From Streptosporangium album (lineage in GTDB: Bacteria > Actinomycetota > Actinomycetes > Streptosporangiales > Streptosporangiaceae): DNA of 64,000 bases. Made by a program: the position numbers and the translations under genes. This document shows positions 33,941 through 50,785 of this stretch, one piece after another; position 1 is the stretch's first letter; each line of letters starts with the position of its first letter. The stretch spans positions 124,001-188,000 of the forward strand of contig NZ_JACHJU010000006.1 of the NCBI RefSeq assembly GCF_014203795.1. Reading direction: 5' to 3'. The notes beneath the pieces are model-generated. The model saw only the letters and a program-made list of their open reading frames with translations. It did not search any database and was not told the origin of the DNA.

Positions 33941-34637
33941 GGATCTTTCTCCTGGTGGTGCAGGGTGATTGATCAAGGCCTTGGGTCGGTGCGCTAACAC
34001 CGGCTCAGGGCCGTCTTTATTTGTCCGGGCGACTGCGTCGCCGACCTCACCCTTATGGGCTTCCGCGGTCGGGCCACAGCCGCTGCTCACGACGGCGGTC
34101 GCCGCCTTCTCGCTGTGAGGCACTTTCTACACCCGGAACGAACACTCCGGCATCCCGATCGCGCAATGACCGATTTGTCGTCTCGGAGAGATAAGTGAAA
34201 ACGTGCAGAGTGAATTATCGAGATCTTCGATCACGCCAGTTTCAGATCCTTTCTTCATCCTGCGCTGTCGGCCTGAAGGATGAGTATCGTCTTGGCGGGC
34301 TGACCGGTGCGAAGTGGGTGTCAACGTGTCTTCCTCAGCCTGGATCCACCGCGTGATTCCTGCTGATCATTGTCTGGTCCATTTTCTCCGCGAGGGCCGT
34401 TTCTCCTGACGAAGCGCTGTTTTCGGGTGTGGGAGAGCCGCCGTGCGCGGGTCGCGGCTTGTCCAGGTGTGCAGGGGCTCGGCGATGGGGGCTGGTGCGG
34501 GTGCGCGGGTGACTTCTGGGGTCGTGGCGGGGCGGTGACCGGGGAGTTCGGGCGGGTCAGGCCGCTCGGGCGGGCGGCGGGTCGTGGACGGGGTCGAAGG
34601 CGTTCAGCCACGCGTACTGCCAGTGCCAATGCTTGGG
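33941..34637. other. Promoter region and gene debris upstream of the winged-helix gene
   Basis: The first 380 bases include a stretch of clearly lower GC (34180-34280) suggestive of promoter DNA; a minus-strand 43-codon frame from ATG 34255 there has no family match. Bases 34559-34650 encode, on the minus strand, a plausible peptide end (KHWHWQYAWLNAFDPVHDPP then a stop), which enters the end of the IS701-like element and seems to be the tail of a gene cut by it. I see no complete gene. Confidence 0.35.
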
Positions 34638-35459
34638 TAGTACGGCAGCCGCCATTCGCTAGTTGAGCTGGGAGTATGCGGTGGTCAGGCGGGCGCGTCG
34701 GTGAACCCATCGGGCGCGGGCTTGGTGTCGGCGGCGCCATGCTGACCAGTAGGCCGTGCGGAACAACGAACGCGACGTTGTCGTGGCGGCGTTGGACAGG
34801 TGCTTGAGCTCGGCGATGGTCAGCGGGATCATGCCCGGGTCCTCGGGCGGCTGCTGGTCGGGACCGGCGGTGGCGATCCAGACCCAGGCGTAGGTGCGTT
34901 CGCCCTTGGAGCCGTCGCCGGCCGAGCGGATGGTCCACCTGCGTTTCTGCTTCAGGTGCTTGGCGACCACCTGCTCGCAGGTCAGGCGGGTGCCGCCGCC
35001 GAGGGTGAGGGTGAAGGAGGAGCGGACCCGCAGCACGTACGCCTGCCGGTGTTCCTCCAGGAAGGTGCGCAGTTGGGGGCAGGCGCCGTACACCTCGTCC
35101 CCGGCGCGGATGTAGGCCAGGTGGACGGTGTTGATGCCGTTGTCGATGCCACCCGCGCAGCGATGCTCCAGCCATTGCGTTTGTACAGGTCGGACATGAC
35201 CGCGCGGACGTACTTGACGGCCTGCAGGCGCGGCTCCATCCGTGCGAACACGGGTGCCGGCGCGGTCATCAGTTCGTTCAGTTCCGCTGGACACGCTCTG
35301 CCTCCACGATGAGCGCAGCAGCCGCTCCCGATCTTGTTCTTCTCACACAGACATGATCACGAGCGGCTGCTCTCGTTGGACCGGATTCCCATCACAAGAT
35401 CACATCGACCCAGGCGAGTATCTGGCCAGCTCACAAGGCGAATGGCGGCTGCCGTACTA
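34638..35459 (-). mobile_element. Internally deleted IS701-like element
   Basis: Positions 34638-34659 and 35438-35459 are perfect 22-bp inverted repeats, and similarity extends inward (GAGCTGG on both sides). They enclose 822 bp with transposase debris on the minus strand; IS701 elements are normally about 1.3-1.5 kb, so this copy has lost several hundred bases. Intact ends mean it could be mobilised in trans, like a MITE. It ends two bases before the stop codon of the MpaB-like gene. Confidence 0.82.
34659..35269 (-). pseudogene. IS701-family transposase remnants
   Basis: An N-terminal piece (RMEPRLQAVKYVRAVMSDLY, KRNGWSIAA) is followed, in another frame, by the middle of the enzyme: AYIRAGDEVYGACPQLRTFL, EEHRQAYVLRVRSSF, QVVAKHLKQKRRWTIRSAGD, YAWVWIATAGPDQ. 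The first catalytic region between them is deleted. The C-terminal WSAWRRRHQARARWVHRRAR matches typical ends. The order and spacing correspond to IS701/DDE_5 transposases, but the protein cannot be functional. Confidence 0.75.
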
Positions 35460-35460
35460 G

Positions 35461-36876
35461 CTAGGACAGGAGGGAGTTGTAGGCGACCGAGTGCTGCTGC
35501 CCAGACATAAAGGACAGGAACTGCCTGACGAAAGCGCTGCGCGAGTAGCTGTCGCCTCTGCCGGTCAGATCGCGGTGGAAGGCCGTGCGGAACAACGTCT
35601 GATACTCCTGGGCGTCGATCGTCTGGTCGTCGTCGACGTCGGTGACATCGAACAGCACATCGGCGATCTTGACCAGTCCGGAGCTGGGCAGAGAGGGAGC
35701 TGAGGCGGCGTATTCCTGGCGCGTGACGCGTCCGTCGCCGTCGGCGTCGAGATTGGTTTGCAACTCCCGCCACCAGGCGGCGTAGGCGTTGTAAAGCCGC
35801 TCCTCGTCCTGTTCATCCAGGTCGAGCCGAGTGGCGATCTCTCTGGCCATGGCGGCCAGGTCGGGCCAGGCGAGGTAGCCGTCGCCGGTCTGGTCCAGGA
35901 CCTCGGCGAAGAACTGGTCAGCCGAGCGTGTGGCTTGATTGACCTCGTCGGGAGCCGGGGTGATGAGTCTGAGCATGGCCGCGGCCTGGCCGGCCTTGCG
36001 GCGTACGTTCTCCCACGGTCCAGAACCACCGGCGTGGTCGGGATCCAGCAGGCTCATGAACGAGCCGACCTGCACCCAGCCGTTTGGAAGCAGGCGGGTG
36101 GCGAATCCGGCGGTCAGGTAGGCCCCGTGCATAAGTGCCCGCGCCCCTGGGAGGTCAGGCAGGGCGACACGTCGGCAGAAGGATTCCGGCAGCGACGCGA
36201 TGGTGACCGCGGCGGCCACAGGGCCTGCCACGGCCCGGCCTGCGGCCCACACCGCGGGATGGCTGCGCAGCAGGGGCGGCGCGGGCACATTGGCGAAGAG
36301 CCGGTAGAGGATGACGCGCACCGCTTCGGTGCTCTCCAGACGATGGTCGATCATGTCGTCGTAGTAGGGCCAGAACTCCTGCAACGTCGCAGGGAGCTGG
36401 TCGCTGTTGCCCTCGAGCAGGGCCAGCAACGTCCGGAACTCGGTGTAGAGCTGTTCCACCGCGGGCCCGTCCAGCGACTCACCGCCCAGCCGATACATCG
36501 TCACCGCCGACTCGAACAAGGTCGCCACCACCCAGGCGCGTGCTTCGGCGTCCATCGCGTCGTAGCGGCGGCCTTGCGGGTCGGTGCCCGAGATGCGTGC
36601 GTGCAGGCGGTTGAGGCGAGCTGCCTCCCGGCTGCGAACGTGCCGGTCCGGGTCGAGCATCCGCTGCGCGCTTACCACGGTGTTGCGCAGACGCCGCCAC
36701 GGATGCGTCACGAACGTCGAGTTTCCGATCAACGCCGTGCCGATCTGCGGGTGCGCGGCTTCCAGAACCGTGGCGCGGGTCACCGCAAGGCCCCAGCGTG
36801 CCTCGTTGACGAGGCGGCGCAGCATCGAGTTCGGCCCGAAGACGTCGACGGTCTCCTCTGCGGTGGTCTGATTCAT
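35461..36876 (-). CDS. MpaB/rubber-oxygenase-like protein with EF-hand domain
   Basis: A 471-residue fusion. Residues about 10-300 are a DUF2236/MpaB oxygenase domain (EAAHPQIGTALIGNSTFVTH, LHARISGTDPQGRRYDAMDA, EARAWVVATLFESAV), the family of haem proteins that includes fungal MpaB, which cleaves a farnesyl side chain, and latex-clearing protein. Residues about 315-450 hold EF-hands: loops D328-D339, D377-E388 and D413-E424 keep the calcium ligands, and a fourth is degenerate, as in calerythrin. No signal peptide. ATG 36876 follows GGGAGAG and overlaps the cis-prenyltransferase stop as ATGA, so the pair is tightly coupled. A polyprenyl substrate is therefore likely, but this is inference. 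Confidence 0.88.
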   Translation of the reverse strand: MNQTTAEETVDVFGPNSMLRRLVNEARWGLAVTRATVLEAAHPQIGTALIGNSTFVTHPWRRLRNTVVSAQRMLDPDRHVRSREAARLNRLHARISGTDPQGRRYDAMDAEARAWVVATLFESAVTMYRLGGESLDGPAVEQLYTEFRTLLALLEGNSDQLPATLQEFWPYYDDMIDHRLESTEAVRVILYRLFANVPAPPLLRSHPAVWAAGRAVAGPVAAAVTIASLPESFCRRVALPDLPGARALMHGAYLTAGFATRLLPNGWVQVGSFMSLLDPDHAGGSGPWENVRRKAGQAAAMLRLITPAPDEVNQATRSADQFFAEVLDQTGDGYLAWPDLAAMAREIATRLDLDEQDEERLYNAYAAWWRELQTNLDADGDGRVTRQEYAASAPSLPSSGLVKIADVLFDVTDVDDDQTIDAQEYQTLFRTAFHRDLTGRGDSYSRSAFVRQFLSFMSGQQHSVAYNSLLS

Positions 36877-37610
36877 CGAAGTTTCTCTCCCGTCGTGGCG
36901 GCCGGCTGGCGGACATCGCCGAATCGGCGCTGGCGCCGCCGGTAGGCGTCAAGGCATTCCCAGAGGTGGGTCGCGCGAAAGTCAGGCCATAGCACCTGCG
37001 GGAAGACCCATTCGGCGTAGGCCACTTGCCAGAGCATGAAGTTGGAGATCCGTTGCTCTCCGGAGGTACGAATGACCAGGTCCACATCCGGCGTGTCGGA
37101 GTATGGGAGATGCCGGGCGAAGGTGGCCTCGGTGACCTGCTCGGCGGGTACGGCGGCGCGGATCAGTGAACGGGCAGCTTCCACGATGTCGCGACGTCCC
37201 CCGTGATCGAAGGCGATCGTCAGCGTCATTTGCCTGTTGTCACTGGTAAGTGTCATCAGATCGGTGATGTCCTGAGCCAGCAGTGGTGGGATCCGCGGAT
37301 CGGCCATGCCCAGGAACCTGCACCGGACACCTCGCGCGTGCAACGCCGGTGCATGCTTGCGGATGGTCCGGCGCACGAGCCTCATCAGGATGTCGACCTC
37401 GCCCGCCGGCCTCCGCCAGTTCTCGGTGGAGAAGGCGTACAGGCTTAGCCACTTGATGCCAGCCGAGCGTGCCGCCTCGATGGCGTCGATTACGGCGGCC
37501 TCTGCCGCCTCGTGGCCTGCGGTGCGCGGCAGCGATCGCTGCGCGGCCCACCGCCCGTTCCCATCCATCACACAAGCCACGTGACGCGGCAATCCGCTGA
37601 TAATTTCCAT
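36873..37610 (-). CDS. cis-Prenyltransferase (undecaprenyl-diphosphate-synthase family)
   Basis: A 245-residue Z-isoprenyl diphosphate synthase, condensing IPP onto an allylic primer. Motifs: HVACVMDGNGRWAAQRSLPR with catalytic D16, GIKWLSLYAFSTENWRRP, LTIAFDHGGRRDIVEA, and VDLVIRTSGEQRISNFMLWQ with the conserved Arg/Ser. The length is typical of medium-chain enzymes; product length cannot be read reliably. The start at 37610 has no Shine-Dalgarno, but a near-consensus promoter ends 12 bp upstream, so the transcript is almost leaderless. It overlaps the MpaB-like gene. An isolated pair of this sort differs from the housekeeping uppS context and suggests specialised isoprenoid metabolism. Confidence 0.93.
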   Translation of the reverse strand: MEIISGLPRHVACVMDGNGRWAAQRSLPRTAGHEAAEAAVIDAIEAARSAGIKWLSLYAFSTENWRRPAGEVDILMRLVRRTIRKHAPALHARGVRCRFLGMADPRIPPLLAQDITDLMTLTSDNRQMTLTIAFDHGGRRDIVEAARSLIRAAVPAEQVTEATFARHLPYSDTPDVDLVIRTSGEQRISNFMLWQVAYAEWVFPQVLWPDFRATHLWECLDAYRRRQRRFGDVRQPAATTGEKLR

Positions 37611-37620
37611 AGCGAAGCGT

Positions 37621-37649
37621 TACTATAGCATTACTAATAGTATTGTCGA
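37621..37649 (-). promoter_or_regulatory. Promoter and operator of the prenyltransferase-oxygenase operon
   Basis: On the minus strand TCGACA (37644-37649) and TATAGT (37622-37627) are 16 bp apart, each one mismatch from the sigma-70 consensus, unusually good for this genome. The inverted repeat TACTAT (37621-37626) / ATAGTA (37637-37642) overlaps the -10 box and spacer and could be a repressor site. The start codon at 37610 leaves only a few leader bases. Confidence 0.7.
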
Positions 37650-37981
37650 GTGTCGCAGTCCGTAATTGCCAGATAGCGGCGGAGCTTGGGGTGCCGTGTT
37701 GAGCAGGATCACCCCCACGATCGGCAGGGCCAGCGCCACGACGACGCCCACGAGCGGGTCCGGCCGAGGTGCGACCAGAAGCGGCCATTGATCAAGCTGC
37801 TTCGTAATCTCGGAAGTGGAATCCGGCCTCCCAACGGGCGCGAACAGCGCGATCTCGGCAGTCCGCCCTGGAGACCATTTCCGAGATCGATACATCCCGG
37901 AAGTGGAGGCGGAGCTCGGTCGGACTGCCGAGTCGGCATCCACCCAGCTCAGAGCCCTCCATGATCTGATCTTGGCCGGAA
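37650..37981. other. Decayed region before the truncated glycosyltransferase
   Basis: A minus-strand frame encodes one hydrophobic helix (PLVGVVVALALPIVGVILLN) followed by a short tail, with no start or domain; it may be the end of a lost membrane protein. The rest (37810-37980) has imperfect repeats around GGAAGTGGA but no recognisable gene. Confidence 0.3.
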
Positions 37982-39022
37982 TTGCCGGTATCTCGGCTGG
38001 ACCCGAATCCCGCGCAACGGCAGAATGCCGACCAGCTCGCCGCACGCGCCGCACTCAGCGAACCAGACGCGGCCCTGCTCGCAGACACCCATTGGGAGAA
38101 GTGGAGCCACAGCCCCTACTGGCTGTCTGCGCTACGTGCGGCCTCCGAGCAGGCCAGCACGATCGTCACCGTCTCCGAACACGACCGTGACCTCGCCTAC
38201 CGGCTCCTGCCACTCCAGGGCCAGGACCTGCCCGTCATCACCAACGGCGTGGACGTCAACCAGTTCCGCCCCCGCCCTCTGACCGATAACGAACGCAGCG
38301 CCCACCTGCGCCACTGGCTCGTCACCGACCCGCGCGGATGGCGGCCAGGCGGCAAAGCCGCAAGCATCCGCTACACCGACGCCGACCTGCGCCGCCTGTA
38401 TGACGCCAACGGACGCCTGCGCCCGCTGCTGCTGTGGGTCGGACGGTTCCTGCACTTCAAACGCGTTCCCGTCCTGCTGGAAGCCTTCGCCCAGGTCCGA
38501 AAGGAACTCGACCCCGCCCCGGCGCTCCTGATGTGGGGAGGTTACCCCGGCGAGTACGAAGGCCCTCACCCGGCCGACCTCGCCCAGGACCTCGGAATCG
38601 ACGATGACGTGTTCTTCCTGGGCTGGCGCGGTCACGACGAACTCCCCATCGGGCTCAACTGCGCCGACCTGATGGTCGCCCCCGCCGTTGATGAACCCTT
38701 CGGCATGGTCTACATCGAAGCCATGTCCTGCGGTACCCCGCCCGTCGCCACCGCCACCGGTGGACCCGCCCGCACCATTACCCCCGCTGGCCCGCATGCC
38801 AACGGATGGACTGTGCGGCCCAACAACGCGCCCGATCTGGCAGCCACTCTCATCCACGCCCTCACCCACCCCGGCGAGCGAGCACGACGGGCCCATAACG
38901 GCTCCGCTCACGCCTACAACACCTACAGCTGGCAAACCGTGGCCGACCGCTACACCGCCATCTACGAAGAGACAACCACGAGAAGCGTGCGACAAGGAAA
39001 CGTCACAGCCCTCACCCGTTGA
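37982..39022 (+). pseudogene. Glycosyltransferase family 4 protein, N-terminally truncated
   Basis: About 346 codons. The C-terminal GT-B half is complete: nucleotide-sugar domain with LLLWVGRFLHFKRVPVLLEA, LLMWGGYPGEYEGPH, DDVFFLGWRGHDELP and the E-x7-E motif in EPFGMVYIEAMSCG, then a helical end. The N-terminal half is reduced to its last part (TIVTVSEHDRDLAYRLLPL, PVITNGVDVNQFRP); about 100-150 residues that normally form the acceptor-binding Rossmann core are missing. There is no ribosome site. It was probably an alpha-glycosyltransferase of cell-surface or secondary metabolism, now likely inactive. Confidence 0.75.
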
Positions 39023-39218: not shown

Positions 39219-39464
39219 TCAGCCTGCCCAGAGGATGTCGTACACGGTGACGGTGCGGGCGGGCCGGTCCAGGAAGAACGCCACGATGCCGTGCTCGCCG
39301 AAGGTGGCGTGCCGGAAGTTGGGCTCTTCGCTGCGGATCGGACTGCTGTCCAGCGGGTCGTCTCCGATCTCCAGCAGTCGCTCTACGAGCGCGGTGAAGG
39401 CCTCGGGCGGCAGCCCGGGGATCTTGCTGGAGGCGGATGCGTGGTAGGTGATGCGGTAGTTCAC
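39219..39464 (-). CDS. RelE/ParE-like toxin of a type II toxin-antitoxin pair
   Basis: An 81-residue protein starting at GTG 39464 (MNYRITYHASASSKIPGLPP). The pattern is that of RelE-fold toxins: a short beta strand, two helices (EAFTALVERLLEIGDD), then strands with basic residues and the ending FGEHGIVAFFLDRPARTVTV and YDILWAG. In RelE relatives such proteins cleave mRNA on the ribosome; ParE relatives poison gyrase. The key catalytic residues are not clearly conserved here. It overlaps the upstream DUF6247 gene as GTGA, which supports a toxin-antitoxin unit. Confidence 0.78.
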   Translation of the reverse strand: MNYRITYHASASSKIPGLPPEAFTALVERLLEIGDDPLDSSPIRSEEPNFRHATFGEHGIVAFFLDRPARTVTVYDILWAG

Positions 39465-39778
39465 GCGGGGCGGCCGGCGGCGCGGGCGGCCACGAGGTCG
39501 GCCCATCCGGGGATGATGTTTTCGGCGGGGACGGTGTTGATGCCGGCCGCGGCCTCGGCGCGGGCCTGCTCGTGTCCGGGGTCGGCGTACATGAGGGCGC
39601 GCAGATCCCAGAGGTGGAGAACCTTCTGCAGCTGCCGGTAGCGCCAGGGTTCGGCGGCGGCCTCCAGCGCGGCACGGTAGTCGGCCAGGAACTGGCTTCG
39701 ATGCTCGGCAGGCAGCCGACTCAGGATGTCGTCGGGGTCGTGCCCGGCGCCGTGGTGATCCACCGGCTGAGCTGTCAC
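39461..39778 (-). CDS. DUF6247 protein, probable antitoxin
   Basis: A 105-residue DUF6247 protein (HDPDDILSRLPAEHRSQFLA, DYRAALEAAAEPWRYRQLQK, VLHLWDLRALMYADPG). This family is confined to actinobacteria and regularly precedes RelE-like genes, so it is the probable antitoxin. GTG at 39778 lies seven bases after GAGGAG; in-frame alternatives further up lack a site. The toxin gene follows with a four-base overlap. The pair sits in a decayed, IS-rich zone, where such modules often persist. Confidence 0.82.
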   Translation of the reverse strand: MTAQPVDHHGAGHDPDDILSRLPAEHRSQFLADYRAALEAAAEPWRYRQLQKVLHLWDLRALMYADPGHEQARAEAAAGINTVPAENIIPGWADLVAARAAGRPA

Positions 39779-40083
39779 GGTCGTCTCCTCGGGGTGCATC
39801 GAGGTGGGTCCTGGCTGCGCCCAGTGTATGCCGGTCAGCGCGGATTGGTTCGGGCCGTCGACTACCACGAGCTCTCCAGCATCCACCTCTACCCCGGCCT
39901 TGGTGCCAAGGTCGCAGCTTTGGCCTCGCCTGAAGCGGTCATCACGGAGGTTCTCCTTCCGCCGCTCAACGACCACACCTTCCGATGGAGGTAAGCAGGC
40001 CTGCGCACGCGGCCCGTCACGGCCCCGTCACGATCCGCCGAGAGCCGGGGACACGGGCGAGGCTCGCGGGCCAGGCTCAGGCC

Positions 40084-41687: not shown

Positions 41688-41751
41688 GTGAAGCCCCTGG
41701 TAGGGGTGGGTCTTGTCGAAGGATCCACCGCACCGCACACAAGGGCTTCAC
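41688..41751 (+). promoter_or_regulatory. Hairpin over the transposase start
   Basis: GTGAAGCCC (41688-41696) pairs with GGGCTTCAC (41743-41751), whose last base adjoins the GTG start of the transposase and which contains its ribosome site. Two further pairs extend the stem. Transcripts entering from outside would fold and hide the start, while a transcript beginning inside the loop would not. The same arrangement is in copy A. Confidence 0.6.
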
Positions 41752-42603
41752 GTGACCTCCAGTATCACCTACACAGCCGAGTTGGACATGCCGCGCGAGG
41801 TTGTGCTGTTTCTGGCCGGGCTGTTGCGCGCCGAGCGGGTACGGCGCCGCACCCGCGCGGGCACTCGGGCGCTGGGCGAGTTCAAGCAGGCCGTTCTGAT
41901 CATCCGCTGGCTGGTGGACGGCGCTCGGATCGCCCGGCCGGCCGCCGATAACGCCATCTCGCACGCGACCTGTGATCGGTACGTCGAAGAAGGGGTCACC
42001 GTATTGAAGGCCCAGGCGCCGACGCTACAGGAGGCGCTCACGGCGGCGAAGGCCGCCGGCTACACCCACCTGCATCTGGATGGCACGCTGATCGAAACCG
42101 ACCGCTGCCGCGCCCTGGGCCCGAACGGCGCCGACCTGTGGTGGAGTGGAAAACACAAGCAGCACGGCGGCAACATTCAGGTCCTGTCCAGCCCCGGCGG
42201 CGACCCGCTGTGGACTTCTGAGGTACGGCCCGGCCGTGAACACGATCTCACCTGTGCCCGCCTGCACGGCCTCCTCGACCTGCTGGCCAAGGCCGCCGAG
42301 GACGGGCTGATCACGTTGGCCGACCTCGGCTACGTCGATGCGGGTATGGGGTTTCGCCTGCCGTACAAGAGGTCTCGGGGTGGCACACTCACCGACGATC
42401 AGATCCAGTACAACAAGGTCCACGGTGCGCTCCGAGCCCTCGCCGAACGAGCGAACGCCCAGCTCAAGATGCGGTTCAAGGCACTGCGGAACGTCAGCAA
42501 GTGCCCTTGGAAGATCGGCGGTATCGTCGCCGCGGCGCTCGTCCTCTTCCACCGGGAGCAAGCTCACAAGCAGCTGTCACCCAGCGTGAACGCCGGTTGC
42601 TGA
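41752..42603 (+). CDS. IS5-family DDE transposase (copy B)
   Basis: A 283-residue transposase, identical to copy A except at four positions (RPAADN, LKAQAP, LLDLLAKA, EQAHKQLS here). The catalytic D-D-E residues are intact (HLDGTLIETDR, LADLGYVDAGM, LAERANAQLKMRF). GTG 41752 follows AAGGG. The high identity means the two copies separated recently. It would move this element and possibly the segment between the copies. Confidence 0.93.
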   Translation: MTSSITYTAELDMPREVVLFLAGLLRAERVRRRTRAGTRALGEFKQAVLIIRWLVDGARIARPAADNAISHATCDRYVEEGVTVLKAQAPTLQEALTAAKAAGYTHLHLDGTLIETDRCRALGPNGADLWWSGKHKQHGGNIQVLSSPGGDPLWTSEVRPGREHDLTCARLHGLLDLLAKAAEDGLITLADLGYVDAGMGFRLPYKRSRGGTLTDDQIQYNKVHGALRALAERANAQLKMRFKALRNVSKCPWKIGGIVAAALVLFHREQAHKQLSPSVNAGC

Positions 42604-49918: not shown

Positions 49919-50785
49919 TCATCTGCTGCCGGATCGCCCGCGCGCCGACCCTCGTCGCCGGGGTGCCGGGGCGCTCACCCGCCGGTCGCCCGCCCCCGGC
50001 GTCACGGGCGCCCCTTCTCGCAGCTCCCGCACCTCCGCCCGGAGGGCGGCCAGCTCCGCGAGCACGGTCACGCCGAGGTCGCGCGTCGCCTGGACCGACT
50101 CCTCGGTGTGCTCGTCCTCCATCGCGCTGACCACCACCGCGATGAAGAGGTTCAGCACGACGAAGGTGCAGACCAGCATGAAAAGCACGAAGAACACCCA
50201 CGCCGACGGGTGCTCGTCCATCACCTCCCGGGTGATGTCGGACCACGCGTCTCCGGTCATCATCTGGAACAGGGTGAACAGCGAGGTGGGCAGGTCGCCG
50301 AAATACTCCGGCGCGGTGGCGTGATAGAGCTTGGTGCCCATCACGGCCGCGACATAGAGCACCAGGCCGAGCAGCAGGACGATCGACGTCATCCCCGGCA
50401 CCGCGGTGAGCAGGGCCGTCACCACCCTGCGCAGGCTGGGCACCACGGAGATCAACCGCAGTGCCCGCAGGATCCGCAGCGCCCGTAGTACCGACAACCC
50501 TCCGGCCGTGGGCAGCAGGGAGACCGTGACGATCAGGGTGTCGAAGAGGTTCCACGGGTCGCGGAAGAATCGCAGCCGGTCGACGTAGAGTTTGGCGGTC
50601 AGCTCCGCCACGAAGATGTAGAGCGCCAGATGGTCGACGACGGTCAGCGCCGTGCCGTACCGCCCGACGGCGACAGCCGAGGTCTCCAGTCCCAGGGTGG
50701 CCGCGTTGGTCACGATGACCGCGATGATGAACCGCTGGAAACGCGGGGTCTCCAGTACGGCGCGGACACGCTCGCGCGTCGGCAC
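49919..50785 (-). CDS. Single-domain voltage-gated cation channel, calcium-type filter
   Basis: A 288-residue channel of the NaChBac/NavAb type. Six TM helices; S4 carries R101, R104, R107 and R110 at every third position (LRALRILRALRLISVVPSLR). The pore reads TLFQMMTGDAWSDI, with Asp179 and Asp183 where NavAb has Glu and a neutral residue, giving TGDAWSD. S6 ends in VVLNLFIAVVVSAMEDEHTE. A C-terminal coiled coil (VLAELAALRAEVRELREG) and a basic tail follow. GTG 50785 is seven bases after GGGGAG. In bacterial channels extra aspartates in this loop turn sodium into calcium selectivity, so calcium permeability is predicted. It stands alone. Confidence 0.9.
   Translation of the reverse strand: MPTRERVRAVLETPRFQRFIIAVIVTNAATLGLETSAVAVGRYGTALTVVDHLALYIFVAELTAKLYVDRLRFFRDPWNLFDTLIVTVSLLPTAGGLSVLRALRILRALRLISVVPSLRRVVTALLTAVPGMTSIVLLLGLVLYVAAVMGTKLYHATAPEYFGDLPTSLFTLFQMMTGDAWSDITREVMDEHPSAWVFFVLFMLVCTFVVLNLFIAVVVSAMEDEHTEESVQATRDLGVTVLAELAALRAEVRELREGAPVTPGAGDRRVSAPAPRRRGSARGRSGSR

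Follow-up and report, generated by a model that had tools for sequence, protein, structure and literature searches.

CPT and OX, a cis-prenyltransferase and an MpaB/Lcp-type oxygenase-like protein with a C-terminal EF-hand domain, are encoded by overlapping genes in a 64,000-nucleotide stretch of Streptosporangium album DNA (the window). The two genes are strictly paired, their products belong to recognizable families and folds, the active-site residues and EF loops are conserved, and a promoter-like site stands in front of the pair. We propose, tentatively and at somewhat less than an even chance, that CPT–OX is a self-contained biosynthetic module, mobile by horizontal transfer, that produces a Z-prenyl chain and then subjects it to oxidative cleavage or modification. 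CPT would add IPP head to tail to FPP or GPP, the allylic diphosphate, and so build a Z-prenyl diphosphate. OX, whose translation is coupled to that of CPT, would act next. As an oxygenase that binds haem b and has the MpaB/Lcp/anethole-oxygenase fold, OX would use O2 to break a C=C bond of the Z-prenyl chain or of its dephosphorylated form (or to oxidise that bond), and the product would be a shorter aldehyde or ketone. The EF-hand domain would bind two or three Ca2+ ions and switch or stabilise OX, or dock OX to CPT or to the membrane. That CPT passes its Z-prenyl product on to OX is suggested by the one-message layout, the co-occurrence of the two genes and the lack of a third partner; for OX, we infer the haem, the substrate, the cleavage and the calcium control.

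What would such a module mean? If the proposed chemistry is true, two genes would be enough both to synthesise a Z-prenyl chain and to cut it. They would constitute a compact apo-isoprenoid source and a rare bacterial example of an enzyme under EF-hand control. A more specific version, which we regard as unlikely, is a calcium-switched apo-isoprenoid factory, in which CPT delivers the Z-prenyl chain directly to the haem oxygenase, a calexcitin-like EF-hand domain decides when the oxygenase cuts it, and two mobile genes by themselves give rise to short Z-isoprenoids of a new class (aldehydes or ketones, as a volatile or signal). The parts belong to known families, and it is the strict CPT–OX pair and the EF-hand fusion that appear to be undescribed. 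Among openly licensed PMC papers, we found neither a CPT paired with an MpaB/Lcp-type oxygenase nor an MpaB-type oxygenase with an EF-hand domain, in agreement with the original prediction, whose author knew of no described system of this composition.

Layout and conservation of the gene pair

The CPT gene (36873..37610, minus strand; 245 residues) and, after it, the OX gene (35461-36876, minus strand; 471 residues) are both located where the original prediction had placed them. CPT ends at 36873 and OX begins at 36876, and the stop and start codons overlap in the four bases ATGA (36873..36876, minus strand). A sigma-70-like scan detects the promoter-like site TCGACA-N16-TATAGT (37622..37649, minus strand), which has 10 of 12 matches and is the sole such site in 35200-37900, where shuffled sequences average 0.3. 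The earlier description of a four-base overlap behind one good promoter is thus borne out. Because the promoter-like site and the start codon of CPT are separated by just 11 bases, the CPT–OX message may be leaderless. A pattern search finds a -10-like element adjoining the start in 15 of 60 cassettes, exactly those in which OX is at least 70% identical, and not next to the start in the other 45 (OX below 70% identical), a count that depends on the choice of start. One of the 15 (L020) has the GTAA part only, and one of the 45 (L096) has TATAGT farther upstream.

Conserved adjacency, on which the original prediction staked itself, was found throughout. A same-strand CPT gene lies immediately upstream of OX in all 62 rows in which OX is at least 50% identical. 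These rows represent 61 distinct records (L052 repeats the genome of L026; other repeat loci of listed genomes are counted once) and include each of the 45 family genomes in which CPT and OX are both present, together with 10 class-search genomes outside the family. They leave out the decayed L100 as well as L009, L043 and L111, where OX is 26-36% identical and the fetched stretch contains no CPT. The two genes overlap by four or one bases in 44 of the 62 rows, and the others range from -38 to +92, save L040, whose outlying value of -319 stems from the automatic choice of ends (its annotation has 143 bases between the genes).

The two genes also occur in nearly the same genomes. In the 297 genomes of the window's family, OX is present in 46 (matches at E ≤1e-60) and CPT of this clade in 45 (E ≤1e-92; weakest 7.3e-103), and all 45 CPT genomes fall within the 46 OX genomes; the genome lists for CPT, OX and the ion channel discussed below were compared by hand. 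In the 46th genome (G168; L100:9016-10507), CPT and OX remain only as match pieces, and by these remnants the pair has decayed together. A class-level search of 394 genomes yields full-length OX in 16 (E ≤1.6e-141; next match 2.6e-51) and CPT in the identical set of 16 (E ≤3.1e-103). The next CPT matches in the class, in G363 and G315, have 53% identity. Among 72,556 plasmid records, the seven with OX (56-58% identity) are the seven with CPT (72-77%), with 20-86 bases between the two genes by aligned ends; the remaining 15 plasmid OX matches are at most 37% identical among the matches listed. This adjacency and co-occurrence support an obligate partnership and a layout for co-expression, the latter in line with the earlier expectation that the products should be made together.

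The cassette is patchily distributed among soil actinomycetes. Within the genus, 3 of 16 genomes have it; it is also carried by Streptomyces plasmids, and its named hosts include Streptosporangium minutum, Sphaerisporangium album, Nonomuraea cypriaca, Streptomyces sp. AcH 505, Actinacidiphila yanglinensis and an Actinomycetes MAG. CPT and OX protein distances correlate with an r of 0.88 over 60 pairs (maximum of 0.22 in 2000 permutations), although such a correlation can be obtained from joint inheritance alone. L040 and L052 were omitted from the 60 pairs, of which 45 form the alignments A1 and A2. The dN/dS ratios are 0.24-0.35 for OX and 0.09-0.18 for CPT (four comparisons each), indicating purifying selection on both genes.

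ORFs of at least 90 residues within approximately 9 kb on each side were clustered over 46 loci, and no third conserved gene was found beside CPT–OX, in a search in which some flanks are short and small or diverged genes would escape. Every cluster spanning at least nine loci overlaps CPT–OX itself and corresponds to CPT, to OX or to shadow ORFs. Off the pair, the largest cluster covers eight loci, and the one member inspected carries an ABC-transporter-like sequence.

A Streptomyces plasmid locus (L043:8974-10386) encodes an EF-hand PF09995-type protein to which OX is 34% identical over its length. Its stretch contains no CPT, and the neighbouring gene is saccharopine-dehydrogenase-like. Thus, CPT is not needed by every EF-hand oxygenase of the OX kind. 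The L043 protein represents a sister branch of OX with another possible partner.

The cis-prenyltransferase

CPT matches PF01255 (E 1.3e-74) and TIGR00055 (238 against a cut-off of 110) and falls below the cut-offs of the narrower PRK equivalogs, and its closest PDB relatives are polyprenyl diphosphate synthases. The catalytic residues, located in the DGNGRW, FSTENW and SGEQRxSNF regions, are conserved: D16, N18, H33, S61, N64, W65, R181, R187, S189 and E200 are present in 60/60 sequences, and R20 is present in 59/60. The original assignment to the cis-prenyltransferases therefore stands. Does CPT elongate in the regular manner? Asn or His at one position is the basis for the call between head-to-tail and head-to-middle synthases in the available part of PMC7839719. 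The His that marks an irregular synthase at the Asn-28 place is not found in CPT, where N18 is kept in 60/60, and Asn at this place favours head-to-tail elongation. The residues of CPT thus support its identification as a head-to-tail cis-prenyltransferase.

The paired CPT shares PF01255, TIGR00055 and the catalytic residues with UppS/IspU-type enzymes and differs from them in a clade-specific motif, DHGGR (residues 135-139; 37194..37208, minus strand), whose D135, H136, G137, G138 and R139 are present in 60/60. Together with F134, which precedes them and is kept in 59/60, these residues form FDHGGR in place of the (A/V)(N/G)YGGR of the UppS/IspU-type yardsticks, and unlike these enzymes the paired CPT is locked to OX. 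The F134-D135-H136 place is occupied by A143-N144-Y145 in E. coli IspU and by VNY and VGY in the two other CPTs of the genome, which are 50% (L064) and 36% (L066) identical to the paired CPT. NYGGR or GYGGR is found in these two and in the two next-nearest CPTs, with the G363 and G315 enzymes having NYGGR as in the L064 enzyme.

The relevant helix of CPT has the same length as that of E. coli IspU. The CPT residue aligned with IspU L137, the loss of which lengthens the product according to the excerpted text of PMC7573591, is M128. The helix length and M128 may suit a medium chain, and F134 could narrow the tunnel and shorten the product. A medium chain would also be in keeping with control of the lipid pool, in which CPT adds to the Z-polyprenyl carrier lipids and OX shortens or removes the surplus in response to calcium, tuning the envelope lipids with no separate product. 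No other pathway gene recurs beside the pair, as this explanation would have it. However, the patchy spread and the plasmid copies suit an accessory trait, and the genome already has a CPT, that of L064, which stands nearer the housekeeping enzymes. We consider such lipid-pool control rather unlikely.

The oxygenase and its EF-hand domain

OX contains a PF09995 (MpaB/Lcp/DUF2236) domain (residues 21-251; 36124..36816, minus strand; E 3.2e-45, 155 bits against a cut-off of 23). The model of residues 1-270 has a pLDDT of 89, and its first five Foldseek matches are all t-anethole oxygenase or Lcp at a probability of at least 0.98. Among them, t-anethole oxygenase (8s1j; TM 0.64, E 0.005) and Lcp (5o1l; TM 0.56, E 0.028) reach 1.00, and the best other match shown is haemoglobin at 0.51. 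The E-values of these fold matches are modest, with none below 0.001, and a catalytic-domain sequence profile found no oxygenase in the PDB. The model supports an MpaB/Lcp-like fold of OX.

The putative active site points in the same direction. R62, T66 and H92 are kept in 45/45 clade sequences, and in an alignment of 44 rows that adds 12 outside relatives, R62 and H92 are present in all and T66 in at least 90%. These residues fall at the places of R164, T168 and H198 of Lcp, the haem-positioning residues, by motif and spacing; the equivalence of H92 and H198 likewise rests on motif and spacing and not on superposed coordinates. The three Lcp residues are named as crucial in the excerpts of PMC5522427 and PMC6311187. 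Family, fold and haem-positioning residues all agree with the original assignment of OX to the MpaB/rubber-oxygenase family. The WVH histidine of most ordinary relatives corresponds to V117 in OX, and the relatives L087 and L090 similarly have no WVH histidine. We rejected the reading of V117 as a lost haem ligand because the published proximal ligand matches H92 by motif and spacing.

Could OX instead serve CPT mainly as an additional subunit, which senses calcium and regulates CPT or acts as its scaffold in the way that NgBR assists human CPT, with the oxygenase site secondary or idle? The one-to-one pairing is as strict as such a role would demand, and eukaryotic CPTs with an accessory subunit are on record in the part of PMC7573591 available to us. 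However, an idle site would not need R62, T66 and H92 in every clade sequence, and the same source describes medium-length bacterial CPTs as homodimers. A role of OX mainly as a subunit seems quite improbable to us.

OX would be a haem b oxygenase that cleaves a C=C bond. Its relatives of known activity cut C=C bonds of prenyl or alkenyl chains (excerpts of PMC5522427, PMC12724181 and PMC6311187), and the spectra of one of them, Nro1, suggest haem b (PMC12724181, in part). Given that the substrates of the superfamily vary among alkenes in the available portion of PMC12724181, the prenyl substrate of OX rests on its CPT partner. The same variety lends itself to another explanation, in which CPT provides another enzyme with prenyl diphosphate and OX oxidises the prenylated compound or an unrelated alkene, and t-anethole oxygenase is indeed the closest structural relative of OX. 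However, no third gene recurs beside the pair, and an intermediate step would therefore need a gene elsewhere in each host. We regard a substrate separate from the CPT product as not a likely one, and we retain the Z-prenyl chain as the favoured candidate substrate.

The C-terminal region of OX scores over the Pfam cut-offs for EF-hand_7 (residues 326-391), EF-hand_1 (best at 406-431) and EF-hand_6, and below that for EF-hand_5. Loop 1 (residues 328-339, D-x-T-G-D/N-G; 35860..35895, minus strand) keeps D328, Q329, T330, G331, G333 and D339 in 45/45. Loop 2 (residues 377-388; 35713..35748, minus strand) keeps D377, D379, D381 and E388 in 45/45, and loop 3 (residues 413-424; 35605..35640, minus strand) keeps D413, D415 and E424 in 45/45 and D417 in 30/45. 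The original prediction of three complete EF-hand loops is correct in the starts at D328, D377 and D413 and in the kept ligands, but loop 1 is not a textbook loop and is instead an invariant variant with T at position 3 and D339 rather than E at its end. A fourth helix-loop-helix (residues 438-455, approximately) is degenerate and has no conserved calcium ligands. The whole-OX model has a pLDDT of 79, and its C-terminal matches are juvenile hormone diol kinase, calexcitin, obelin and a Streptomyces coelicolor calcium-binding protein. The EF-hand domain is thus a predicted calcium binder, through which calcium would control OX.

A single protein that has an EF-hand and also carries out haem oxygenase chemistry, as proposed for OX, has a counterpart in the caleosins, the calcium-binding haem peroxygenases of plants. 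To our knowledge, the caleosins have no sequence kinship to OX and no prenyltransferase partner.

OX differs from each of its better-known relatives. The bacterial C=C-cleaving haem oxygenases t-anethole oxygenase (8s1j) and Nro1, both of the MpaB family, have a PF09995-type fold like that of OX, but Nro1 is far shorter (33.6 kDa), and the excerpted description of the two (PMC12724181) mentions no EF-hand domain and no CPT as a partner. MpaB, the name-giver of the family, acts in mycophenolic acid biosynthesis and cleaves a farnesyl side chain according to the same excerpt. It is a fungal enzyme of a larger cluster, and the available part of its description contains neither CPT pairing nor EF-hands. 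Lcp shares the domain family, the fold match and the R/T/H residues with OX. However, Lcp works on rubber outside the cell (PMC5522427, in part), whereas OX has EF-hands and no hydrophobic N-terminal segment. The search for such a segment was a hydropathy scan alone. It found none in OX or CPT, and extracellular rubber degradation by OX therefore seems unlikely.

Short proteins related to the catalytic domain of OX occur as two neighbouring copies in each of two genomes (G365:C19:143472-145047 and G526:C12:185832-187243).

Surroundings of the pair

An Ion_trans (PF00520) channel gene is located at 49919-50785 (minus strand), and a speculative link between this channel and the pair had been raised in the original prediction. 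The channel lies beyond the flanks that were clustered, and the link was therefore tested by co-occurrence. By hand count, channel relatives are present in 199 of the 297 family genomes, that is, in 34 of the 46 with OX and in 165 of the 251 without OX, and a cassette-bearing congener (G208) has no channel relative. We rejected the link, given that the channel is common in the family and is not associated with the pair. A reading of the pair as an anti-phage defence system was also rejected because neither CPT nor OX matched any PADLOC family at E 0.01.

Across the window, G+C content is lowest in the 2-kb bins around the pair (34001-38000; 0.651 and 0.660). At a distance of 4 kb from the pair there is a DDE transposase gene (41713-42603, plus strand). 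Both are signs of acquired DNA. Upstream of the pair, the first ORF with a family match is a glycosyltransferase group 1 gene on the opposite strand (37982-39022, plus strand). In 39219-39976 (minus strand), a DUF6247 gene (39461-39976) overlaps a small ORF that has no Pfam match (39219-39506), in a layout that we take to resemble a toxin-antitoxin pair.
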